Below, piece by piece: positions 9,255-38,535 of a stretch of 38,535 bases of DNA. The DNA is taken from the IMG/VR virus record IMGVR_UViG_3300048797_000086, positions 1 to 38,535 of that record. One strand, 5' to 3'. The position numbers were made by a program, and so were the translations under genes. This stretch comes from a virus. The notes beneath the pieces were generated by a model, which made no database searches, was not told where the DNA came from, and saw only the letters and a list, made by a program, of their open reading frames with translations. The number at the start of each line of letters is the position of its first letter. Within the stretch, counting starts at the first letter, position 1.

Positions 9255-10699
9255 ACATCCAACTCCGAGATTATCAACTCGAAGGTGTCAACGCCATTAG
9301 GGAGCGGTTCAGGGCAGGTGATAGGAATGTCCTGTTCCAGCTCCCGACCGGCGGCGGCAAGACCATCGTCTTCAGTTATATCACCGAAGGCGCGGCGAAG
9401 AAGAACAACCGCGTCCTGATCCTGGTCCATCGGCAGGAGCTGATCCGGCAGACTTCTGCTTCACTGAACGATATCGGCGTAGAGCACGGCATCATTGCAC
9501 CTGGCTTCACCCCGTCATGGGATATCGTCCAGGTGGCCAGCGTGCAGACGCTCGTCAGGCGTTTGGACAAGATTCACCCGCCACAACTGATTATCTCTGA
9601 CGAGTGTCATCATGCCGGCGCCGCGTCATGGTCAAAGATATTTTCTCATTTCAACAAAGCATCGATCCTCGGCGTAACCGCCACACCAGTACGGCTTGAC
9701 GGTAAAGGTCTAGGACGTTCCGCCGGCGGGTTCTTTGATTCAATGGTGAATGGTCCGGCTGTAGCCGATCTGATCAAGCGCGGCTATTTGGCAACTCCGA
9801 AGGTCTACGCCCCGCCGATTGGTGCCGACCTGTCCAGCTTGCGGAAGAAGTACGGGGAGTTTGTTTCTGGCGAGGCTGCTGCAGCATTGGACAAGCCGGT
9901 CATTACCGGTTGCGCGGTGGAACATTACCGCAAACTCTGCGGAGGAGTCCCGGCCATTGCTTTCTGTGCTTCGGTGGCACATGCCGAGCATGTAGCTGAC
10001 CAGTTCCGGGCGGCAGGGTATCAGGCGGCATCTATTGACGGCACCATGCACGACAACGACCGCAAGCAGAGAATCCAAGCCCTTGGCGGTGGTGCGCTGA
10101 ATGTTCTCACTTCTTGTGACATAATCAGCGAAGGCACGGATATTCCTATAGTTGGCGCCGCGATCTTGTTGAGGCCTACCGCTTCGACAGGGTTGTATCT
10201 CCAGCAAGTAGGCCGGGCACTCCGGATGTATGAAGGCAAAACTCATGCTGTGATTCTGGATCATGTCGGTAATGTCATGCGTCATGGCATGCCGGATGAG
10301 GATCGGGAGTGGAGCCTTGACGGAGAAAAGCTGGGCGGCAAGAAGAAGAAAGATGATGAAAAAGATATTGCTGTGAAGCAATGCGACCAGTGTTACTGCT
10401 GCCATGCTCCCGCTCCGCGCTGCCCGGTCTGTGGTCATGTTTACGAGGTGACCGCCCGTGAGATTGAAACAGCTGAAGGGCAGCTGCAGGAGATCGATAG
10501 TAAGCGGTTGGCGCAGATCGAGGAAAAACGAGGGATTGAATTCAGAAAGCGCGACCGGGGAATGGCGAAGACGGAGGCGGAGTTGCGAGCTGTTATTGCA
10601 GAACAGGGCGGCAATCCAGATCAAGCCTATTATATCATGAAGGCAAGAGGGCAGCGCGGCGGTCCAGGTGTCCATCGGGCGGCTTCGTTGCCGTACTAA
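9251..10699 (+). CDS. DEAD/DEAH-type SF2 DNA helicase
   Basis: The 482-residue product starts with a Q-motif-like LRDYQLEGVNAI, followed by Walker A PTGGGKT (32-38), DECH box (117-120) and TATP (143-146). A C-terminal RecA-like domain contains SEGTDIPIVGAAILLRPTAS, then QQVGRALRM (motif VI). After the helicase core there is a zinc-binding segment (CDQCYCCHAPAPRCPVCGHV) and a charged tail. This architecture is the phage relative of RecG/UvsW-type unwinding enzymes used in recombination or replication restart. The ATG overlaps the previous stop; an upstream start in the same frame at 9218 would lie inside the preceding gene. Confidence 0.85.
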   Translation: MNIQLRDYQLEGVNAIRERFRAGDRNVLFQLPTGGGKTIVFSYITEGAAKKNNRVLILVHRQELIRQTSASLNDIGVEHGIIAPGFTPSWDIVQVASVQTLVRRLDKIHPPQLIISDECHHAGAASWSKIFSHFNKASILGVTATPVRLDGKGLGRSAGGFFDSMVNGPAVADLIKRGYLATPKVYAPPIGADLSSLRKKYGEFVSGEAAAALDKPVITGCAVEHYRKLCGGVPAIAFCASVAHAEHVADQFRAAGYQAASIDGTMHDNDRKQRIQALGGGALNVLTSCDIISEGTDIPIVGAAILLRPTASTGLYLQQVGRALRMYEGKTHAVILDHVGNVMRHGMPDEDREWSLDGEKLGGKKKKDDEKDIAVKQCDQCYCCHAPAPRCPVCGHVYEVTAREIETAEGQLQEIDSKRLAQIEEKRGIEFRKRDRGMAKTEAELRAVIAEQGGNPDQAYYIMKARGQRGGPGVHRAASLPY

Positions 10700-10700
10700 C

Positions 10701-10717
10701 TCAATCAACTTGATTGA
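10701..10717. promoter_or_regulatory. dispersed palindrome site 4 (perfect)
   Basis: A perfect TCAATCAACTTGATTGA palindrome begins 2 bases after the helicase stop codon and 18 bases upstream of the next ATG. A GATAAT sequence partly overlaps its right arm (10716-10721) and could serve as a -10, but no -35 is seen at the right distance. Confidence 0.65.
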
Positions 10718-10734
10718 TAATTATAGGAGATGTT

Positions 10735-10881
10735 ATGAGCTGTCATATATGCAAGCGAACAGGGATCAGAGAGTGTGACCCACAAGAGGCCGAAGTCAAG
10801 TGCATGGTCTGCGGTTTCTGCGAGAAAGAAGCGCTGCGGGAGCAGATCAAAGCGGAAGCGAGGGATGCAGCCGATGAGTGA
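10735..10881 (+). CDS. small cysteine-rich zinc-ribbon-like protein, 48 aa
   Basis: The ATG follows a TAGGAGATG ribosome site. The product has six cysteines (C3, C6, C14, C23, C26, C29), including two CxxC pairs (CHIC and CMVC), then a charged helical tail. This looks like a metal-binding miniprotein. It overlaps the VRR-NUC gene by 8 bases, so the two may work together. It is shorter than the usual annotation cutoff but has a strong ribosome site, and it lies directly downstream of an operator site. Confidence 0.55.
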   Translation: MSCHICKRTGIRECDPQEAEVKCMVCGFCEKEALREQIKAEARDAADE

Positions 10882-11293
10882 AAAAAACATTCAATCCATG
10901 ATCATGCTGGCAGCAAGCCAAACCGGCGCGGCGATCTTTCGCAATAATTCAGGCAATGGCGTAGCTGGCGCAAAGATGTTCCGCATCGAAAGGGACGGCC
11001 CTGTTAATTTGCTGCAGGGCGATTGGGTTGTTCGTCACGGCTCCCGCATCCAATACGGCCTCACTGTTGGCAGCTCTGACCTGATCGGCTGGCGCCGGAC
11101 TATCATTACTCCGGACATGGTAGGGAAACCTGCAGCGCTGTTCCTTGCCCTGGAGGTCAAAACCGCAATCGGCAAAGCAACCCCTGAGCAGATCAACTTC
11201 ATTGCTGCTGTACGTAAAGCGGGTGGTCTGGCTGGAATCGTTCGGTCAGTTGACGAGGCGCTGGGCGTTTGTAATCCTCTGGAGGGGATCTAA
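10874..11293 (+). CDS. VRR-NUC domain nuclease
   Basis: The 139-residue product is one VRR-NUC domain (PD-(D/E)XK superfamily). It has FRNNSG near residue 22, GLTVGSSDLIGW (D69), then the catalytic LALEVKT (E94, K96) and TPEQINFIAAVRKAGG (Q107), ending GIVRSVDEAL. Proteins of this type are Holliday-junction or flap-type nucleases, and standalone phage copies are common next to primase-helicases. The ATG at 10874 overlaps the cysteine-rich gene; starts further upstream in this frame lie inside that gene and lack a ribosome site. Confidence 0.85.
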   Translation: MSEKNIQSMIMLAASQTGAAIFRNNSGNGVAGAKMFRIERDGPVNLLQGDWVVRHGSRIQYGLTVGSSDLIGWRRTIITPDMVGKPAALFLALEVKTAIGKATPEQINFIAAVRKAGGLAGIVRSVDEALGVCNPLEGI

Positions 11294-11338
11294 AGCACCA
11301 CTGCATAGCATACTTTAATATAATAAATCGGAGGCCAC

Positions 11339-11674
11339 ATGCAGCTATACGAAAAGATCACCTCACCATCAGGCCGCGTCACTTATCGGCTATATAGCCC
11401 AACAAATATAGTTATCCCGAACATGGAAATTGAGGCTGAAGAAGCTGTCTCAATCCTGACTACTCTCGTTGTTTCAATCATTCAGGTTATGGAAGATCAA
11501 TTACCACCGTCTGACATTCTCCACCGGCGGATCCGGAATACAAAGAACGAACTGACCGCGCTGGCTGCAATTGGATTCACCAAACCCAAGGACGGCATGG
11601 TCGACGTCGGTGTCGAGGCATGGAACGCTGCGGTGAATGCTATTCAGGATGGGTTATTGAGGGTGCGCTCATGA
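11339..11674 (+). CDS. hypothetical protein, 111 aa
   Basis: The product starts MQLYEKITSPSGRVTYRLYS, with a long amphipathic central helix (EAVSILTTLVVSIIQVMEDQ) and an alanine-rich end. The strong CGGAGG ribosome site and an ATGA overlap with the primase gene mark it as a real member of the operon. A TATAAT at 11319-11324 lies just upstream, without a matching -35. Similar small proteins occur ahead of phage primases, but no function is known to me. Confidence 0.6.
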   Translation: MQLYEKITSPSGRVTYRLYSPTNIVIPNMEIEAEEAVSILTTLVVSIIQVMEDQLPPSDILHRRIRNTKNELTALAAIGFTKPKDGMVDVGVEAWNAAVNAIQDGLLRVRS

Positions 11675-14310
11675 TCAATGCTATGCGAGAGGCAGGTATT
11701 GACCCGCCGGACACACTGATTGATGACGGCAAGCTCCGTCGTTATGCCGGATCAGGAGATAAGCCTCAAAATAAAAAAAACTGGTATGTTCTGTATCTCG
11801 TTGAAAATGGTATTCAAGCCGGATCGTTCGGGCGGTGGGTGGGCGACAGCAACGGCGCTATCAAATGGTGCAACAAATCAGCTATCGAATTCACCCCCGA
11901 AGAGAAGGCCACCTACGCAAAGCGGCAGGCAGATTTACGTCGCAAACAGGCCGAGGACCGCAAGCAAGCTTCTGAAGAGTGTATGTTGAAATGCGCTACA
12001 CTCTGGTCTGCTGCTGCATCAGCCACAGATGACCACCCATATCTGCAGCGCAAACAGGTTAAAGCGCATGGCCTGAAAATGATGGGTGACGCCCTGCTTG
12101 TCCCGATCAGATCCCTGAAAGGAGAGTTAAAAGGGCTGCAGTTCATCAAGCCGGATAGCTCCAAGATTTTCAAGACCGGAGTTGATTATACCGCATCTGT
12201 TCACATGATCGGCAAGCCTGTCGATAACACACTGATCATAACCGAGGGGTATGCAACGGCCGCGAGTATCCACCAGGCGACCGGCCACGCTGTGCTGATT
12301 GCTTTCGTGGCCGGCAACCTGAAGGCCGTTGCAGAGGCGGCAAAGGCGAAACAACCGACTTGGACGCTGATTCTGGCCGGTGATGATGACCGGTGGGCGA
12401 AAGAGCCGAAAGAGGATGGCTCTATTGTTTATCATGAGGTCCCGTGTGAGTTAAACGGTGGCAAACGGATCAATACCGGCAGGGTCAAAGCTGAGGAAGC
12501 GGCCCGTTCTGCTGGTGTTGCTGTCCGGTTCCCCAGATTCACTGATACATCATCACATCCTACCGATTTCAACGACCTCCATAACCTGGTCAATCTCGAT
12601 GCTGTGCGTGTCTGTATCTTCCCTCCCCCGATCGAGGAATACAACCCCGATCACGCGCCGGATCCAGAACATGAGCCTGATCCCTACGACGGCGAAAAGA
12701 CACCGAACCCGTTTCACAATCTCCCGTTTAAATTGCTCGGGTATGACCATGGCGATTATTTCTATCTCCCTCATGGAACCCGGCAAGTGAAAGTTTTACG
12801 AGCTCCTGAACATACCAAGTCGCACCTTATGGAGTTGGCGCCGCTGCAGCGATGGGAGATGTCCGATTTTAACGGTGGCAAAAATGGTGGGATGGATGTT
12901 GATAAAGCGGCCAACGCCATGATTCAAACCAATCAGGCGCTCGGCGTTTATGATTCCAATAAACTCAGGGGTCGCGGGGCTTGGTTCGATGCCGATCGTT
13001 CTGTTGTGCATGTCGGCAATCAATTGATCGTCAATGGTTCTCCAATCAAGATCGACCAGCTGGACTCTGAATTTATCTATGAGCGATCGATTAAAATGAA
13101 GTTCGATATCGGCAAAGACACACTCCCGAATAAAGAAGCTATTAAGATTGAAAAGTTGTGCGATGCCTTGCCTTGGCAACGTGGCGATATAAGTGGCAAG
13201 TTACTGGCGGGATGGTGTGCGCTGTCAGCAATCTGCGGTGCGCTCTCCTGGCGTCCCCACATCCAATTAACGGGCGGCGCCGGCTGTGGAAAGTCGTGGA
13301 TCATTGATAATATCGTGCGACCGATTGCAGGGCCTGGCGCGCTCATAGTTCTGGGCTCCACTTCGGAAGCAGGAATCAGGCAGACTCTCGGGGCTGATGC
13401 GCGGCCGGTTATTTTCGACGAGGCAGAGGGCGAAGATCAGAAGGCTCATACACGTATGCAGCAGATATTCGAACTTGCACGGCAGGCGTCCACCGAATCA
13501 GGGGGTAGCATTTACAAGGGTACGATGGGAGGCACCGCCCAGGCGTTCAGGATCCGGTCAATGTTCTGTTTTGCCTCAATCGGCATATCTCAGACTCAGC
13601 AGGCGGATCAGTCCCGCATATCGGTACTCACGCTCAAAAGCAAGAACGATGGTGGCAAGCATTTTCAAGAAGTAATCGTCCCACTCTGGAAGGAGATAGT
13701 AACGGATGAGTTCTGTTCAGCGCTCCGGGCCCGCATGGTTAAAACGATTCCGGTAATCGTTCAAAATGCCCTGATCTTCTCTGATGCTGTGGGTTTTGTT
13801 ATGGAGAACAAGCGGGCAGGTGACCAGATCGGCGGTCTGCTTGCGGGTGATTGGGCATTGCGCTCAACAGGCGTGATCAATGCTGCTGATGCCAAGCGCT
13901 TTGTCGAGTCGATTGATTGGACCGAGCACAAGATCACGCAAGAACAGTCCGACGAACAGCGCTGTTTGGCTGCAATGCTTGAACACCTGGTGCGCATGCC
14001 GAATACTGACAATGTCAGTATCGCTGAGTTGATTCGCACGGTGTCATCTACGATACTGATCGACGAAACCTGCCCTGCGCAAACGGCATTGAAAAACCAT
14101 GGCTTCAAAGTGGTACAGGGCGGCTTCTGCATTGCCAACCAGCATGGCGAACTAAAGAAGATCATGGAGCGTACTACATGGCCGGCTAACTGGGCTCAGA
14201 TCATTGGCCGCTTACCTGGCGCCGTCACTCCGGACAAGCCAACGTGGTTCTCTGGTGGTGCCGTGCGAACCAAGATGCTGCCATTGTCGTATGTCCTGGA
14301 GGGCGCATGA
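11671..14310 (+). CDS. Toprim primase fused to a P-loop replicative helicase
   Basis: The 879-residue product combines two replication activities. The N-terminal 250 residues hold a Toprim-like primase domain: LIITEGYATAASI around E192, and LILAGDDD around 234-240. A linker with a charged Pro/Asp/Glu-rich stretch (about 325-350) leads to a DUF927-like ATPase. That part has a Walker A GGAGCGKS (535-542) and a Walker B VIFDEAE (580-586). This layout matches phage and plasmid primase-helicases that prime and open the replication fork. An upstream start at 11620 would lie within the preceding gene. It is the main replication protein in view, and the repeat-rich candidate origins lie downstream of it. 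Confidence 0.82.
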   Translation: MINAMREAGIDPPDTLIDDGKLRRYAGSGDKPQNKKNWYVLYLVENGIQAGSFGRWVGDSNGAIKWCNKSAIEFTPEEKATYAKRQADLRRKQAEDRKQASEECMLKCATLWSAAASATDDHPYLQRKQVKAHGLKMMGDALLVPIRSLKGELKGLQFIKPDSSKIFKTGVDYTASVHMIGKPVDNTLIITEGYATAASIHQATGHAVLIAFVAGNLKAVAEAAKAKQPTWTLILAGDDDRWAKEPKEDGSIVYHEVPCELNGGKRINTGRVKAEEAARSAGVAVRFPRFTDTSSHPTDFNDLHNLVNLDAVRVCIFPPPIEEYNPDHAPDPEHEPDPYDGEKTPNPFHNLPFKLLGYDHGDYFYLPHGTRQVKVLRAPEHTKSHLMELAPLQRWEMSDFNGGKNGGMDVDKAANAMIQTNQALGVYDSNKLRGRGAWFDADRSVVHVGNQLIVNGSPIKIDQLDSEFIYERSIKMKFDIGKDTLPNKEAIKIEKLCDALPWQRGDISGKLLAGWCALSAICGALSWRPHIQLTGGAGCGKSWIIDNIVRPIAGPGALIVLGSTSEAGIRQTLGADARPVIFDEAEGEDQKAHTRMQQIFELARQASTESGGSIYKGTMGGTAQAFRIRSMFCFASIGISQTQQADQSRISVLTLKSKNDGGKHFQEVIVPLWKEIVTDEFCSALRARMVKTIPVIVQNALIFSDAVGFVMENKRAGDQIGGLLAGDWALRSTGVINAADAKRFVESIDWTEHKITQEQSDEQRCLAAMLEHLVRMPNTDNVSIAELIRTVSSTILIDETCPAQTALKNHGFKVVQGGFCIANQHGELKKIMERTTWPANWAQIIGRLPGAVTPDKPTWFSGGAVRTKMLPLSYVLEGA

Positions 14311-14627: not shown

Positions 14628-15053
14628 TTAGTCTGGTGTCTGTTGTTGTTCAACATACTGTTGAATAATAGCAATCGGCGCACCGCCGCAAGAGGCCGCA
14701 AAATATGATGGACTCCATAACATATTCTTCCAGTATCGCTTTTCAATGTCCGGTCTTTGTTTGCGGAGCAAACGGCTTGAAACACCTTTCAAGCTGTTCA
14801 CCAGCATAGCAACAGCCATTTTTGGCGGATACTCAAGCAAAAGATGAACGTGGTCATGTTCTCCATTCATTTCAACAAGCGTAGCCTCAAAGTCAGTGCA
14901 GACGCTTGCAAACATAACCCGGAGCCGTTCAATTGCATCATTGTCAAAGACATGTTTTCGATATTTAGTCACAAAGACCAAATGGACATGCATCTTAAAA
15001 ACACAGTGTCTACCATGCCTAATATCAGTATTGTTTCTCATAGCCCACCCCAT
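14628..15053 (-). CDS. tnpA: TnpA, Y1 HUH single-strand transposase
   Basis: The 141-residue protein has the compact Y1-transposase fold: FKMHVHLVFVTKYRKHVF at the start, the HUH metal-binding triplet within GEHDHVHLLLEYPP, and the catalytic tyrosine in the C-terminal IQQYVEQQ. TnpA excises and inserts the element as a single-stranded circle at short target sequences. All key residues are present, so it is probably active. The start may be the first Met at 15053 or the fifth residue at 15041, which has a better GGGTGGG ribosome site. Confidence 0.92.
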   Translation of the reverse strand: MGWAMRNNTDIRHGRHCVFKMHVHLVFVTKYRKHVFDNDAIERLRVMFASVCTDFEATLVEMNGEHDHVHLLLEYPPKMAVAMLVNSLKGVSSRLLRKQRPDIEKRYWKNMLWSPSYFAASCGGAPIAIIQQYVEQQQTPD

Positions 15054-15060
15054 AATTTAG

Positions 15061-15089
15061 TTGATATTTACTTTAGACCAAAGTATAAT
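15061..15089 (+). promoter_or_regulatory. tnpB promoter, near-consensus sigma-70
   Basis: TTGATA at 15061-15066 and TATAAT at 15084-15089 are separated by exactly 17 bases. The tnpB ATG is at 15097, only 7 bases past the -10, so transcripts would start at or next to the start codon and the message would be leaderless or nearly so. No ribosome site is present. Confidence 0.65.
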
Positions 15090-15096
15090 ACATCCT

Positions 15097-16284
15097 ATGA
15101 AACGTTTGCAAGCCTATAAATACCAGATAAAGACCAACGGCACCCAAGAGCGTCAATTGCGCCAGTTCGCCGGGAGTTGCCGCTTTGTCTGGAATAAAAC
15201 CCTTGCCATGCAGAAGGCCCGATTAGACTTAAAAGAAAGCTGTTTGTCATATAACAAGATTGCTATTTTGTTACCTCAATGGAAAGTTGAACATCCGTTT
15301 TTGAAAGAATCTCATTCGCAGGTGCTTCAACAAGCCCTCATGAATCTTGACCGAGCCATAAAGGATGCATTCGACAAGAAGAGTCCCAAACAGTTTCCGG
15401 TATTCAAAAAACGTGGCCGTCATGACTCTTTCCGCTTTCCACAAGGTTTCAAGCTCGATCAACCCAATAGCCGTATATTTCTTCCTAAAATCGGATGGAT
15501 TCACTACCGGAACAGCCGGATCATGGAAGGCACAGCCAAAAACGTCACAGTCAGTCAATCGGGAGGCCACTGGTATATCAGCATTCAGACCGAAAGAGAT
15601 ATAGAACAGCCGGTACACCCTTCGACCTCGATCATCGGCATAGACGTAGGCATAGCAAAGTTTGCCACACTATCAGACGGCACAATCTTTGAGCCGGTCA
15701 ACAGCTTCAAGAAGCACCAATTGAGACTTGCGCGGTATCAACGGGCCATGTCACGCAAAGAGAAATTCAGCAGCAATTGGAAGAAAGCAAAGACGAAGAT
15801 CAATAAGCTCCATACCCGAATTGCCAACGTGCGTAAAGACTATCTTCATAAGACCACTACCACAATCAGCCAAAACCACGCGATTGTATGTATTGAAGAC
15901 TTGAAGATCAAAAACATGTCTAAATCCGCGAATGGCACCATTGAAAAGCCGGGTAGAAACGTCAGAGCCAAAGCAGGACTCAATAAATCAATCCTCGATC
16001 AAGGATGGTTTGAGTTCAGACGACAGCTTGAATACAAACAAGTCTGGAACGGTGGAGAAGTAATCAGTGTCCCGGCCCGGAACACCAGTAGAAAATGCAA
16101 TGTTTGCGGTCATACAGCAGCCGACAACCGTACAAGCCAAGCAATATTCAAATGCACCGCTTGCGGCCATGAAGCCAATGCAGACGTAAATGCAGCATGT
16201 AACATCTTAGCGGCAGGACATGCCGTACTAGCCTGTGGAGAGATAGTGCGACCAGACTTCTCGATGAATCAGGAACCCTCCTAA
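15097..16284 (+). CDS. tnpB: TnpB, RNA-guided nuclease of the IS605 family
   Basis: The 395-residue protein has an N-terminal OrfB helix-turn-helix region (KRLQAYKYQIKTNGTQERQL). A RuvC-like nuclease is split in three: IIGIDVGIAKFATLSDG with the first Asp, IVCIEDLKIKNM with the Glu, and ANADVNAACNIL with the last Asp. A four-cysteine zinc finger (CNVCG, then CTACG) lies before the third motif. TnpB proteins are ancestors of Cas12 and use an omega RNA made from the element's right end to cut DNA next to the transposon-adjacent motif, helping the element persist after excision. All catalytic residues appear intact. A longer in-frame start at 15061 would overlap the promoter. Confidence 0.93.
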   Translation: MKRLQAYKYQIKTNGTQERQLRQFAGSCRFVWNKTLAMQKARLDLKESCLSYNKIAILLPQWKVEHPFLKESHSQVLQQALMNLDRAIKDAFDKKSPKQFPVFKKRGRHDSFRFPQGFKLDQPNSRIFLPKIGWIHYRNSRIMEGTAKNVTVSQSGGHWYISIQTERDIEQPVHPSTSIIGIDVGIAKFATLSDGTIFEPVNSFKKHQLRLARYQRAMSRKEKFSSNWKKAKTKINKLHTRIANVRKDYLHKTTTTISQNHAIVCIEDLKIKNMSKSANGTIEKPGRNVRAKAGLNKSILDQGWFEFRRQLEYKQVWNGGEVISVPARNTSRKCNVCGHTAADNRTSQAIFKCTACGHEANADVNAACNILAAGHAVLACGEIVRPDFSMNQEPS

Positions 16285-33876: not shown

Positions 33877-34086
33877 ATGGCCGCCGATCGGATTGCATTT
33901 GGTGAAAATATTAATTCGGTACTTCCGCCGGAGATGGCCTCCGGGAAAGCTGTAGGAAAGTCAGCAAAAACCGGGGGTCTCGTCGTCCTTCCGGATGCAA
34001 CGACAAACCCATTCGCAGCTTTACCAAATGACGGCAAAGTTTATGTATGGAGGAACGGAGCATGCGAAGAATTGGTTATTGGATAA
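33877..34086 (+). CDS. small hypothetical protein, 69 aa
   Basis: The product MAADRIAFGENINSVLPPEM, then GGLVVLPDATTNPFAALPND and GKVYVWRNGACEELVIG, is compact and beta-prone. It resembles small tail-fibre-associated proteins in fibre regions. It starts 5 bases after the spike stop and overlaps the next, signal-peptide gene by 25 bases. Confidence 0.5.
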   Translation: MAADRIAFGENINSVLPPEMASGKAVGKSAKTGGLVVLPDATTNPFAALPNDGKVYVWRNGACEELVIG

Positions 34087-34178
34087 TCGGATTCGCCATT
34101 ATCGCGACGCTTGCGGATAAATCGCATGCAGCTAGCGTTGTTGGCTCCGCTAAATATAGCGCACAGGAGATACCATGA
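34062..34178 (+). CDS. small secreted protein with signal peptide, 38 aa
   Basis: An ATG with a GGAGGAACGGAGC ribosome region encodes 38 residues. The first 23 (MRRIGYWIIGFAIIATLADK then SHA) form a complete Sec signal peptide with a likely cut after SHA. Only about 15 residues remain. It overlaps the next gene by 4 bases. It is shorter than standard cutoffs. It might be a small lysis-related or periplasmic peptide, but there is no direct evidence. Confidence 0.5.
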   Translation: MRRIGYWIIGFAIIATLADKSHAASVVGSAKYSAQEIP

Positions 34179-34585
34179 AAACGATTACCACGAAGATTCT
34201 TACCCTGATAGTGGCACTATCACTAATTATTCCATCTCTTTCTTGTGCTGCTGATTGGTCGTGGGACCGGACGGACGTTCTCCGCGAAGTAGCGTCAGAC
34301 GGAATTACGGTATTAGATTGGGGCCAGACCAGAGACATAAGAAACCACAATGGCCACACAGAGCTTAATCCTATTCTTGGACCTACTCCGTCTAATGCAG
34401 CAATTAACAGGTACTTTACCAGTGTAATGATTATCCACCCCATTGTTTCTGCTCTGCTGCCAAAGACAGTTCTTGTCTGGGGGTTCGAGTTGAAGCCGCG
34501 CATGTCTTGGCAGTATCTTTACCTGGGCGTTGAGGTCGCAGCTATCAGTTCTAATTTTCATGGTGGCTTGAAGTTGTCTTTTTAA
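34175..34585 (+). CDS. secreted phage protein with signal peptide, 136 aa
   Basis: The N-terminus MKTITTKILTLIVALSLIIP then SLSCA is a clear Sec signal peptide, with a likely cut after the Ala near residue 25. The mature part has a DWGQTRDIRNHNGHTELNPI segment found in a recurrent phage family of unknown function, and two further hydrophobic stretches (FTSVMIIHPIVSALLPKTVL and YLYLGVEVAAI). I do not know its role; a periplasmic or membrane protein expressed during infection is likely. It and the preceding gene break up the otherwise structural run. Confidence 0.6.
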   Translation: MKTITTKILTLIVALSLIIPSLSCAADWSWDRTDVLREVASDGITVLDWGQTRDIRNHNGHTELNPILGPTPSNAAINRYFTSVMIIHPIVSALLPKTVLVWGFELKPRMSWQYLYLGVEVAAISSNFHGGLKLSF

Positions 34586-34622
34586 TACACTATCGAAATA
34601 CAGTAGCCACCGAGGAGGGATG

Positions 34623-35750
34623 ATGCCGCTAATTAATATCCAGACATTCGACCAGCTGGTCACCAACCAAGCAACGGCTCAACAGGCTCAATCGTCACAA
34701 ATACTTGATCAGAGCGAAGGTTCTGTGACATTGGCCGTCAACGAAAGCAACGCTGATATAGCTCAGTGGTTACAGAGCCTCGTTATCCAGCTGATAGCGG
34801 TCACAAGGCTGTCAACATCTACCGGTCCGGATGTCGACTCATTCATTGCCGACTTCGGTTGCATTCCCAGACTTCCAGCTATTCCAGCCACAGGAGCTGC
34901 AATATTCAGCCGCTTCACTTCGAGCATCCAAGCGCTTATTTATCCCGGTGCGACAGTCCAGAGTGCCGACGGCAGCGAAAACTATATTGTCACTACCGAC
35001 GCGACTAATTCGGCCTGGAGTCCCGATCTACTGGCTTATGTTGTGCCGATCTCTACAAGCAGCGTAACTGTTCCAATTCAAGCTGTTGTAGCTGGTTCAT
35101 CCGGTAACATGGCGGTCGGGAGTGTAACTGTAATAACAACAGCCATTCCGGGCGTCGATACGGTGACAAACGCCACGGCAACGACCGGTGGTCAAGACAT
35201 TGAACCAGATGGAGCGGTAAAGGCTCGCTTCGTTGAATTCATAGCGTCTTTCCAAGAAGGGACTATTGCCGCCGTCAAGTACGCGGTTGTTCAAACTCAG
35301 GTGGGGCTTGTTTGTAATATCGTCGAGAATTATAGCTATTCAAATGTCCTTCAGCTTGGTTATTTTTACGTGATTCTGGACGACGGGTCAGGTGCACCAT
35401 CCACTACACTGATTAATCTGGTGAAAGCAAATATCGAGGCAATCCGGCCCCTGTGCTCATCCTTCGATATCTTTGCCCCAGTCATCATAAATGCCGATGT
35501 TGCCATAGCACTGACTTTATCCAGTGGCAACCTTTCAGCAATCGAAGCCTTGGTGCAAGCGGCGATCATAGCATACATCAATTCAACACCGCTGGGTCAA
35601 CCACTCGCATATACGATGCTTAGCGCTGTAGCTTACGGAGTTTCACCACTAATTACCAACGTAACCGCAATTACGTTAAACGGCGGGATAGCAGACTTGA
35701 TCGCTACGAATCAGCAGACAATCAAAGCGGGAGCAATCACCATATCATAA
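34623..35750 (+). CDS. baseplate J-like wedge protein
   Basis: The 375-residue product has the Mu gp47/P2 gpJ layout. There is an N-terminal helical part (ADIAQWLQSLVIQLIAVTRL) followed by beta repeats (SRFTSSIQALIYPGATVQS). A central TATTGGQDIEPDGAVKARFV segment follows, then a C-terminal GFYVILDD-like sequence (QLGYFYVILDDGSGAPS). It forms the baseplate wedge around the hub. GAGGAGG precedes two ATGs (34620 and 34623), of which the second has the better spacing. Confidence 0.82.
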   Translation: MPLINIQTFDQLVTNQATAQQAQSSQILDQSEGSVTLAVNESNADIAQWLQSLVIQLIAVTRLSTSTGPDVDSFIADFGCIPRLPAIPATGAAIFSRFTSSIQALIYPGATVQSADGSENYIVTTDATNSAWSPDLLAYVVPISTSSVTVPIQAVVAGSSGNMAVGSVTVITTAIPGVDTVTNATATTGGQDIEPDGAVKARFVEFIASFQEGTIAAVKYAVVQTQVGLVCNIVENYSYSNVLQLGYFYVILDDGSGAPSTTLINLVKANIEAIRPLCSSFDIFAPVIINADVAIALTLSSGNLSAIEALVQAAIIAYINSTPLGQPLAYTMLSAVAYGVSPLITNVTAITLNGGIADLIATNQQTIKAGAITIS

Positions 35751-35759
35751 GGGGTTTAT

Positions 35760-36533
35760 ATGAAAAAGTTCATCGTAATAATCAGCATCTTTATGGCATC
35801 GGCACTGGCGTATGCGACTGGCACGAAGATTTCAGCGTTACCGGCGGCAACTTCAATCGGAGGAAGTGACACTACTTTACTGGTACAGGGCGGCGTGAAT
35901 ATGAAAGCCCCGGTATCAATGCTGACGCAGGGGTTACTCGCTTCCGACCTGTTGAATAAGATCAAGACGGTTGACGGCATAGGATCTGGACTTGACGCTG
36001 ACTTATTTCAAGGTAGACAGGCCAATACATTTCAGAATAGTTCCACGGCCATCAATACCCATAATATCAACGCACAAACTGTGGCGAACTCGTCGCAGTT
36101 GAATGGTAATTACTCATCTTTTTATGCACCCATTTTAAGTCCCGCGTTTTCAGGTGTACCCACAGCAGTAACAGCAACACCCGGTACAACAACAAACCAA
36201 CTAGCAACCACTCAGTTTGTTGCCTCTTCCATTACAGGTGGGAATTCGTTTCTTCCTAATGGATATCAGAAATTTCCAAGTGGCTTAATAATTCAGTGGG
36301 GGACATCCACAGTTCCATATAATGGTGGCAATGGGCAGGTGGAAACCCTTAATTTTGCTATACCATTCCCAAGTACGTGTCTGAATGTATCAATAACTTC
36401 ACATCTTGTTTCTGGAACCAGTTCAATGTGGGAATTAAGTGCAATGACAACCTCAAATGTCTCAGTTGTGTATACATATGATACGGGTGGGGCAGATTCT
36501 TCTACTTGGAGCTATGTAGCAATAGGGTACTGA
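35760..36533 (+). CDS. tail fibre protein with an N-terminal signal peptide
   Basis: Residues 1-19 (MKKFIVIISIFMASALAYA) form a textbook Sec signal peptide with an AYA cut site. Directly after it comes a standard phage fibre attachment motif, TKISALPAATSIGGSDTTLL then VQGGV. The C-terminal part (GYQKFPSGLIIQWGTSTVPY) resembles the gp53-type fibre tip domain that contacts host surfaces. A cytoplasmic virion protein should not carry an export signal, so this is unusual. It lies between the J and I baseplate genes. Its translation start region is nearly identical to that of the tailspike at 37300. Confidence 0.72.
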   Translation: MKKFIVIISIFMASALAYATGTKISALPAATSIGGSDTTLLVQGGVNMKAPVSMLTQGLLASDLLNKIKTVDGIGSGLDADLFQGRQANTFQNSSTAINTHNINAQTVANSSQLNGNYSSFYAPILSPAFSGVPTAVTATPGTTTNQLATTQFVASSITGGNSFLPNGYQKFPSGLIIQWGTSTVPYNGGNGQVETLNFAIPFPSTCLNVSITSHLVSGTSSMWELSAMTTSNVSVVYTYDTGGADSSTWSYVAIGY

Positions 36534-36534
36534 T

Positions 36535-37290
36535 ATGAATTTGCCGCCGGTTGACATAGTTTCAATGACATCCAGACTGCAGGCCACTCTCCCTGGGTCA
36601 TGGTTTCCTGATGATGCCTCTAATCTCCCTACGATGCTGCAAGGGGCGGCGTATGTGGCGAGCCAGACGTATACCAACCTGCTCCAAACGGCATTGTTGG
36701 CCCGGCTCAAAACGGCATCAGGCAACTTTCTGGATATAGCGTCCAATGACTTCTTTGGGGTCAATCTCCCAAGAATATACGGTGAAGCAGACTCTTTTTA
36801 CCTGGCGCGTATCCTGGCGAAGATCGCATTGAAGAAAGTTACCTTAGCTGCTTTAACCACCGCTGTGACCAATATGTTCGCCGGGACTGGCGTCACATTT
36901 TCAATTCAGGAATATGCACCAAATGGGGCAAACACCAATGTCCCATTAGGGGCAACGCCGGTCGGGATAAATATAGCGGATAGTGCTTCTCGTTATGGGT
37001 CACCATTACAACCGTTTGAGTGTGCCCTCATTTTAGTGGATGATCCAGCCAACGGGAGTGAAAATATCGAATTGGAAGATGGGACAGATTTACAAATGGA
37101 GGATGGTAGCACAATTGACCTTGAATTTCTGAGTTCGTCTCTGTATTCGCCCTTGTTGGCTTTGGTGTCGAGTATAAAACCTATCGCTACAACCGTCTGG
37201 ATCGTAGTAGGGTTGCCACTCACAGACGAAACAAACGGGAATACTCTTACTGATGACAACAACATAGCATTACATCTATCTTCACCATAA
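36535..37290 (+). CDS. baseplate/tail protein I-like, 251 aa
   Basis: The 251-residue protein starts MNLPPVDIVSMTSRLQATLP with a helical N-terminal half (TNLLQTALLARLKTASGNFL) like P2 gpI or Mu gp48-type proteins. These link the baseplate wedge to tail fibres. Near residues 180-200 there is an internal repeat (LEDGTDL, then MEDGSTIDLE). It has no signal peptide, unlike the genes on either side. It starts one base after the preceding stop. Confidence 0.65.
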   Translation: MNLPPVDIVSMTSRLQATLPGSWFPDDASNLPTMLQGAAYVASQTYTNLLQTALLARLKTASGNFLDIASNDFFGVNLPRIYGEADSFYLARILAKIALKKVTLAALTTAVTNMFAGTGVTFSIQEYAPNGANTNVPLGATPVGINIADSASRYGSPLQPFECALILVDDPANGSENIELEDGTDLQMEDGSTIDLEFLSSSLYSPLLALVSSIKPIATTVWIVVGLPLTDETNGNTLTDDNNIALHLSSP

Positions 37291-37299
37291 GGAGTTTGT

Positions 37300-38535
37300 A
37301 TGAAAAAGTTATTGTGTTTATGTCTTCTTTTAATTCCGATCAACAGCTTTGCCCTTTCTGAGACTTTTCAGCAGTATCTATCAACTAGACCTGTAGCATT
37401 AGCACCTACAGTCTCTGATTCCCTACTCATTTATCAAGGTGGGGTGGTAAAACAATTACTCACCGCTGCTCCTATTACGATAGAGTCTAATGGAGTTTCA
37501 TTCTCCAATCCTTCGATTACTACCCTTGAACAAGCCCGTACCTCAATATATGCAGCGAATGCAACCGTCAAAGTGAATAATGCCCTCACCGAGGCGCAGA
37601 GCAACATTACCGCACCGTGGCCTGCTGATCGCGCGCTAGAATTTGTCAAGGGCGGTAGTATCGCCAACTCTACGGCGTTTGCGTTTGCAACAGGTACAGT
37701 CGTTATTATTCCCGACAACCTATATGTGTTTGCGGGGAGTGGTGCGGTGACAGGACTAAAAGAGTCGATGCCGGAATGGTTCGGAGCTTTTGCTGATGGC
37801 TCAATAGGGCATGAGGCGGTTAACAATACAGCAATACAACGCGCGGTTGACTCAATTTCTGTCACGGGCGGAGAAGTGCTTTTCCGTGGCACATATGTAA
37901 AAAGTGGGACTGTTGTAGTGAATAAGAGCTTCATCACGCTGCGTGGATTTAATACAGGGGGGAAAAGCCTTGTATATGACTTGAGCGTCGGACAAGGGAG
38001 TAAGGTTGTCCAGAGTGACGAAAACATCGCTTTTAAAACAAATGTTCCACTGGGAACACCTTCTTATCCGGGGCACGCTTATTCCGCTATAACATATAAA
38101 GACTTCAATATATGGGGGCCATCTGTAAGCGGTGCTGCTGTTGGTATATCCATAAAAGATGATCGGTGGGATTTATTAAGCCCCAATGGCGACGCAACAG
38201 ATACAGTATTAATCCAGAATATGTCAATTAGTCACATTGGTCTCTGCATTGCTGCATGGAATTGTGATGCACCACGTATAATTGGCAACTGGTTGTGCGA
38301 ATCTGGAAAAGCTATTGAATTAACAGGCGGATACCACGGTATCATATCTGGCAACATTATTGCCGACAATACTGGATTAGCAAAAGATTCATTTCTATTC
38401 GGAGGGATCCATGTATCTCTTGAACTGAGAGCACTAATAACTAATAATACTACTGCAAGGAATATCAGAACAATATTTTTAAATGCAGTTACTGATAGTA
38501 TTGTTTCCGACAATATTATCAACCAAGACGTTATC
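37300..38535 (+). CDS. beta-helix tailspike with signal peptide (3' partial)
   Basis: The frame runs off the right edge after 412 codons with no stop. Residues 1-18 (MKKLLCLCLLLIPINSFA) form a Sec signal peptide. The next part (YLSTRPVALAPTVSDSLLIY then QGGVV) resembles the fibre attachment motif of the gene at 35760. From about residue 160 the sequence turns into right-handed beta-helix rungs of pectate-lyase type (DRALEFVKGG, ITLRGFNTGGK, RIIGNWLCESGKAIELTGGY, GIISGNIIADNTG). Tailspikes of this kind bind and often cut surface polysaccharide. AAGGAG precedes the ATG. Confidence 0.72.
   Translation, partial: MKKLLCLCLLLIPINSFALSETFQQYLSTRPVALAPTVSDSLLIYQGGVVKQLLTAAPITIESNGVSFSNPSITTLEQARTSIYAANATVKVNNALTEAQSNITAPWPADRALEFVKGGSIANSTAFAFATGTVVIIPDNLYVFAGSGAVTGLKESMPEWFGAFADGSIGHEAVNNTAIQRAVDSISVTGGEVLFRGTYVKSGTVVVNKSFITLRGFNTGGKSLVYDLSVGQGSKVVQSDENIAFKTNVPLGTPSYPGHAYSAITYKDFNIWGPSVSGAAVGISIKDDRWDLLSPNGDATDTVLIQNMSISHIGLCIAAWNCDAPRIIGNWLCESGKAIELTGGYHGIISGNIIADNTGLAKDSFLFGGIHVSLELRALITNNTTARNIRTIFLNAVTDSIVSDNIINQDVI

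Follow-up and report, generated by a model that had tools for sequence, protein, structure and literature searches.

Tail fibre genes with predicted Sec signal peptides in a contractile-tailed phage and in further viral contigs

Introduction

Synthesis and attachment of tailed-phage fibres are assumed to take place in the cytoplasm. Here, we describe two fibre-type genes, P0001 and P0002, which are located in the tail operon of IMG/VR virus record IMGVR_UViG_3300048797_000086 (38,535 bases, analysed over its whole length and in the following called the window) and which both start with a predicted Sec signal peptide followed by an N-terminal phage fibre module. Judged from its gene content, the window stems from a contractile-tailed phage. 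The same type of N-terminal module is present in ordinary fibres from Halomonas phage QHHSV-1, Proteus phage 10, Erwinia phage RAY, Roseobacter phages CRP-4 and CRP-5, Microcystis phage Mae-Yong1326-1 and IMG/VR contigs. Unlike P0001 and P0002, these fibres begin with the module itself or a few residues ahead of it and carry no signal peptide. The only solved phage chain with a match to the module is gp22 of phi-crAss001 (PDB 7qoj, 7qol, 8ckb), a trimeric fibre that has a related module close to the N-terminus and matches the profile weakly (E 0.61). It is held in the docking hub by its N-terminal residues 1-26 (PMC10172136) and lacks a signal peptide, again unlike the fibres of the window. 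The C-terminal domain of P0001 matches the R1-type pyocin fibre (PDB 6cxb, 6cl5; E 6.5e-4), the N-terminus of which differs from that of P0001 and for which no signal peptide is known.

Exported proteins that resemble fibres have been described in bacteria. The MAT fibres of Bdellovibrio are phage-fibre-like proteins with an N-terminal signal peptide (PMC10769870); they are encoded by bacterial predation genes and have a beta domain of about 130 aa after the signal, whereas a short phage module in a phage operon is found in the window. WceF from Pantoea is an exported tailspike-like beta-helix protein (PMC7949094), but it is a bacterial enzyme with a Tat signal and without a phage attachment module. 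On the phage side, Llp of T5 is a superinfection-exclusion lipoprotein that blocks the receptor from outside the cytoplasm (PMC9586334). Llp is a small lipoprotein, whereas the window encodes fibres with signal-peptidase-I-type sites. The parts are thus already known, while we did not find the combination of a signal with a phage fibre module in the searchable literature, where exported fibre-like proteins are bacterial. Signals are described as a feature of cellular targets (PMC8144416), and a missing signal peptide has been cited in support of the view that an adhesin derives from a phage and not from a cell (PMC6199706). Recurring tail-operon fibre genes with Sec signals contradict the working rule that phage fibres have none, and they render a long-held assumption about fibre assembly testable. 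They also serve as a warning for annotation pipelines, in which signal-bearing phage fibre genes should not be called host adhesins.

Results and Discussion

Predicted signal peptides and fibre modules of P0001 and P0002

Both genes are encoded on the plus strand within the tail/baseplate operon, in the order baseplate J, P0001, gpI-like gene, P0002. P0001 (35760-36533, 257 aa) consists of a signal peptide, the fibre module, a shaft and a C-terminal domain (residues 171-257), and its N-terminus reads MKKFIVIISIFMASALAYA-TGTK-ISALPAATSIGGSDTTLLVQGGV. The predicted Sec signal peptide, MKKFIVIISIFMASALAYA, occupies positions 35760-35816 (codons 1-19, or 1-15), with cleavage predicted after AYA or, alternatively, after ASA (codon 15). 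P0002 (37300-38535) is a tailspike-type gene that starts with MKKLLCLCLLLIPINSFA-LSETFQQYLSTRPVALAPTVSDSLLIYQGGV, the predicted Sec signal peptide MKKLLCLCLLLIPINSFA being encoded at 37300-37353 and followed by a degenerate module ending in QGGV and by a right-handed beta-helix (E 6e-6). As the contig ends within the gene, its 3' end is open, 412 aa are seen and the C-terminus lies outside the record.

Signals were called with a strict rule for n-h-c architecture that required a basic n-region, nine uncharged residues with a mean hydropathy of at least 2.2, and small residues at -3/-1 one to nine residues later. It was used instead of an earlier, loose rule, which passed 11% of phage open reading frames (ORFs) and about 20% of shuffled sequences. 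The strict rule is passed by 15 of 1062 other phage ORFs of at least 150 aa (1.4%) and by 0.6-0.7% of shuffles of P0001 and P0002. Both fibre proteins pass, as the original prediction had proposed for the genes at 35760 and 37300, and show by this rule an n-h-c architecture with a small-residue cleavage site of the Sec/signal-peptidase-I type. Among all window ORFs of at least 100 aa, a signal is called for just one further protein, P0003, encoded upstream at 34175-34585. The prediction had regarded the signals as gene-specific and the baseplate genes between the fibres as devoid of them; indeed neither the gpI-like nor the baseplate J-like protein has a signal, but a single gene (36535-37290) rather than several lies between the fibre genes, and P0003 had gone unmentioned.

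The start codons were examined as well. Shine-Dalgarno sequences precede the ATG of P0001 (AAGGGG) and of P0002 (AAGGAG), the start of P0003 also has a good ribosome-binding site, and the sole in-frame alternative start in P0001 (ATG, codon 12) has no Shine-Dalgarno match. Mis-called starts were set aside on the basis of these Shine-Dalgarno and inner-start checks. Lipoprotein signals were likewise set aside, the sites being AYA-T (or ASA-L) and SFA-L instead of a lipobox with cysteine at +1, and so were Tat signals, as no twin arginine was seen.

A hidden Markov model (HMM) of the module, built solely from 118 signal-less phage fibres with the window excluded, gives P0001 a score of 35.8 bits and P0002 one of 16.5 bits, while no other window ORF exceeds 3.3 bits and the best of 500 P0002 shuffles reaches 5.8 bits. 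In P0001 the module, ISALPAATSIGGSDTTLLVQGGV (ISALP...QGGV; codons 24-46, 35829-35897), is also evident from the alignment. A common fibre motif behind both signals, as predicted, therefore holds at the level of the HMM, but only P0001 has an intact ISALPAAT half, that of P0002 being degenerate. The module starts at residue 24 of the primary P0001 product, and its usual start around residue 5 is regained only if the signal is cleaved. The C-terminus of P0001 is a Gp53-like fibre domain (Pfam E 1e-15), and residues 161-238 account for the match to the R1-pyocin fibre (PDB 6cxb). Single-sequence structure predictions were of low confidence (predicted local distance difference test, pLDDT, 36 and 30).

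Recurrence of the signal-plus-module combination

Whole-protein searches with P0001 and P0002 gave almost no matches. Therefore, we searched IMG/VR for the N-terminal module by degenerate DNA patterns and removed evident chance matches; the counts below apply to the matches listed and do not give a frequency of the class. Two of the scans favour signals, one by requiring MK(K/N) at the start and one by requiring Ala-Gln before the module. A third scan required only an ATGA 17-27 residues upstream of the module, with no condition on hydrophobicity, and it retrieved the same two N-terminal groups.

At least 134 distinct module-bearing proteins were found, 118 without and 16 with a signal. Of the signal-less proteins, 116 have their nearest start 3-15 residues upstream of the module, most often at 5 (71 of 116), and the remaining two are internal module copies. 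In the 16 signal-bearing proteins the module is preceded by 20-35 residues, an extension that is scored as a signal peptide; 14 of the proteins pass the strict rule, and the failing pair (L017, L069) is signal-like by eye. A signal-peptidase-I-like site lies 2-8 residues upstream of the module in most of them, the sites in the class being VQA-Q, TNA-Q, ASA-Q, VFA-Q, AVA-Q, AFA-Q, THA-Q, ALA-Q, SFA-A, AYS-Q, SYS-Q, AYA-T and AHA-Q.

The 16 proteins are encoded on 15 contigs, 14 besides the window, with 36-69% GC. By eye, some of the contigs are Bacteroidota-like (AT-rich, with SYS-Q or VQA-Q) and others proteobacteria-like; AHA-Q or ASA-Q sites are found in GC-rich ones. Signal-fibre genes adjoin baseplate hub or wedge genes in six tail-operon loci (window, L001, L017, L069, L093, L103) and also occur in the podovirus-like contigs L092 and L130; in L251 the gene overlaps a long ORF on the opposite strand and its context is not confirmed as phage. 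A pattern scan of genome contigs gave chance matches only (Streptomyces and one Chloroflexi metagenome-assembled genome), and none of the module-bearing isolate phages examined (QHHSV-1, Proteus phage 10, RAY, CRP-4, Mae-Yong1326-1 and others) has a signal. As read from sequence, the combination of signal and fibre module is a recurring one that spans several apparently different phage types and not a one-off. A signal on fibres had been called unexpected in the original prediction, and its recurrence in 14 other contigs strengthens this point.

Signals are also concordant within records. In the longer stretches available for six records of the class, every module-bearing fibre gene found carries a signal, including one for a protein of 1579 aa in record G008. 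Where a record has two module genes, both have a signal (G004, G008, L130 and the window) or both lack it (three others), and mixed records were not found. Further fibre-like or unassigned large genes of the six longer records also have signals.

Would such N-termini arise by chance or mis-annotation, as hydrophobic segments without an export function? The signals were called by a heuristic rule, and fibre genes are modular and acquire odd N-termini. However, the low background among phage ORFs and shuffles, the 16 proteins on 15 contigs, their matching cleavage sites and the concordance of tandem genes all speak against this explanation, which we regard as very improbable. We assign an equally small probability to two products per gene, in which case translation from the outer start would yield an exported protein and translation from an inner start within the signal a cytoplasmic one for the virion. 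Inner ATG, GTG or TTG codons are indeed present in most of the genes, and the inner ATG of P0001 is located 12 residues before the module and thus inside the usual range. On the other hand, such codons are expected by chance in segments rich in Leu, Met and Val, and no inner start exists in L092 and L093. In most of the 16 genes Shine-Dalgarno sequences favour the outer start, and an inner start that skips the signal has such support in a single L019 gene, by a weak GAG at the inner ATG.

Fate of the signal-bearing fibres

The predicted signal architecture, the choice of start, the module, the position in the operon and the recurrence are all legible in the sequence itself. Because the signals are host-like and the cleavage sites are placed such that cutting would roughly restore the usual fibre N-terminus, export is the simplest reading, and N-termini of the P0001/P0002 type very probably direct genuine export and cleavage. 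P0001 and P0002 would then be precursors of adhesion fibres in a contractile-tailed phage. Their Sec signal peptides would be functional, with export by the host Sec machinery and trimming by signal peptidase I, and the mature chains would start a few residues ahead of the I-S-x-L-P...Q-G-G module, similar to ordinary cytoplasmic fibres. The exact N-terminus of a fibre matters, since residues 1-26 are what holds gp22 of crAss001 in its docking hub.

A different use of the hydrophobic N-terminus would be as an uncut anchor, the protein staying in the cytoplasm and its N-terminal helix inserting into the baseplate or docking hub. The segment by which gp22 is held (PMC10172136) is similar in length to the extensions described here. 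Yet these first 26 residues of gp22 are polar, while the extensions combine a basic n-region with an uncharged h-region and a signal-peptidase site near the module and are host-typical by eye. An uncut anchor would need no such sites, so their position speaks for trimming, and we consider the anchor unlikely.

As to what follows export, the fibres would fold and trimerise in the periplasm and join the virion baseplates as the inner membrane gives way and the cell is lysed, attachment being the last step of assembly and an extracytoplasmic one. We favour attachment after export because the complete module is kept behind the signal, so that the mature protein must still attach to something. Class members were found via the module, the presence of which is thus given by construction; the informative part is that it is intact and stands directly behind the signal. 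Late attachment gains plausibility from some model phages (T4, P22), whose fibres and tailspikes are able to bind to particles in vitro. Maturation in the periplasm followed by attachment to virions at lysis is nevertheless put forward tentatively. The wider proposal, that a group of tailed phages with hosts from several phyla completes its virions outside the cytoplasm, with all module fibres Sec-exported, cut, folded in the periplasm (some with disulfides) and bound at lysis by baseplates or tail hubs, appears possible but doubtful.

The cysteine content fits folding in an oxidising compartment. Among the listed proteins, signal-bearing fibres contain 10.5 cysteines per 1000 aa vs 3.3 in the others, and the first 40 residues from the module contain at least two cysteines in 3 of 16 signal-bearing proteins (MPCEQGGTKKC, IPCEQGGTRQC and NCEYTLVEQGGITSSAKVC) vs 0 of 118 others (Fisher p 0.0014, not corrected for relatedness). 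In L016 and L070 a cysteine pair flanks the QGG of the module (PCEQGGTKKC, PCEQGGTRQC), an arrangement not seen in signal-less copies.

Several observations weigh against folding in the periplasm and late attachment. L016 and L070 are related, which leaves fewer than three independent cysteine cases. The neighbours of signal-bearing fibres contain 9.3 and those of the other fibres 6.5 cysteines per 1000 aa, and the difference between the fibres may in part be a lineage effect. Moreover, the virions of crAss001 also contain disulfides, without export (PMC10172136), and cysteines are for this reason no proof of periplasmic folding. No precedent for extracytoplasmic attachment of fibres in a tailed phage was found in the literature searched, which is weak evidence as subscription papers were largely outside the search.

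Further counterarguments come from close relatives. Contigs with a related J gene share 44-46% identity in it (five J proteins were too divergent for their alignment to be used as a search query), and L001, with 46% identity, is syntenic with the window. It has a signal-plus-module fibre (9918-11270, MMSRIKRGALLAPLVLACAGAPFAPPAHA-QSSTVHIGNLP), placed after gpI in L001 and after J in the window. This gene directly precedes a signal-less fibre gene (11293-12954, MDRQIVYPG), and the C-terminal halves of the two proteins (241 aa) are 63% identical. The N-termini of the pair are unrelated; by eye, the inner part of the common domain is near-identical and the outermost tips differ. A module fibre with a signal was not seen in L271 and L272, the fibres of which have other N-termini. 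The absence of a signal from close homologues, named in the prediction as a refuting result, thus received a mixed answer. Since L001 has the signal fibre and none was seen in L271 and L272, it is, to judge from these contigs, an accessory that comes and goes in the phage group of the window, which fits a role outside the virion equally well.

The main rival to attachment at lysis is a free exported fibre that acts at the envelope and not on virions, where it would cover or strip receptors or surface glycans or work as a soluble depolymerase. Covering or stripping would keep superinfecting phages and released progeny from being caught on the same cell or its debris, the module being a leftover or a trimerisation element. 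The best hint in this direction is the arrangement in L001, with its exported and non-exported neighbours of similar C-terminal half, and two further points are in line with it: no such fibre was seen in L271 and L272, and the P0002 beta-helix has a weak similarity to inulin fructotransferases. Secreted receptor blockers are known in phages, T5 Llp being an example (PMC9586334). Against this stand the attachment module kept in 16 proteins, needless for a free fibre, the fact that Sec alone ends at the periplasm, short of surface receptors, and the finding that all module-bearing fibres found in the longer signal-fibre contigs carry signals. Besides, the L001 pair has mostly the inner domain in common. 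On balance, we judge a free fibre rather unlikely, though a serious candidate. With regard to the three meanings offered in the original prediction (assembly or display at the envelope, release of free fibres as decoys or depolymerases, and receptor masking), the data favour exit of the protein from the cytoplasm, its fibre N-terminus being complete, while virion attachment at lysis and a free envelope-acting fibre are not separated. The class points either to extracytoplasmic fibre attachment or to a family of secreted, phage-made adhesins that would alter the envelope before lysis.

Genetic environment and further signal-bearing genes

The tail operon of the window comprises a gpD-like gene (32205), a gpV-like spike gene (33287), P0003 (34175), the baseplate J-like gene (34620), P0001, the gpI-like gene and P0002. 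The J-like gene (34620-35750, plus strand; Pfam Baseplate_J, E 9e-30) is located directly upstream of P0001. The gpI-like gene between the fibre genes (36535-37290, plus strand) matches PHROG 26379 (function unknown) with E 1e-17 and a tail-baseplate PHROG with E 4e-5, and it is 31% identical to L001:9160-9900. P0003 (MKTITTKILTLIVALSLIIPSLSCA; 136 aa, plus strand) lies between the spike and J genes; no Pfam family and no convincing PHROG family could be assigned to it, tblastn against the phage collection gave no match, and none of the tests made identified it as a fibre. Just upstream of it lies a small hydrophobic ORF (34047-34178). Genes for a terminase (17973), a portal protein (19638) and a major capsid protein (21843), assigned by reading and not by profile, precede the tail genes, and with these ORFs present the locus is that of a phage with a head and not of a headless, tailocin-like particle.

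Other records of the class contain additional signal-bearing genes. Record G002 has three (L268 297-4580, 4589-10009 and 11466-13253) for proteins of 1427, 1806 and 595 aa, with repeated modules in common and no PHROG match for the parts tested. G004 has a signal-bearing gene with a PHROG tail-fibre match. In record G005 (L256 8093-9790), a signal peptide precedes a different N-terminal sequence (ATFNLFQPANGILVGNPSTYVTTAATSSTVISLWSGTC) that has no match in the phage collection and is perhaps, from its sequence, a second fibre attachment family with export signals.

Finally, the window contains an IS200/IS605-type pair at 14628-16284, with a TnpA-like gene on the minus strand and tnpB on the plus strand. 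Its TnpB shares 62-63% identity with copies from Escherichia coli plasmids.

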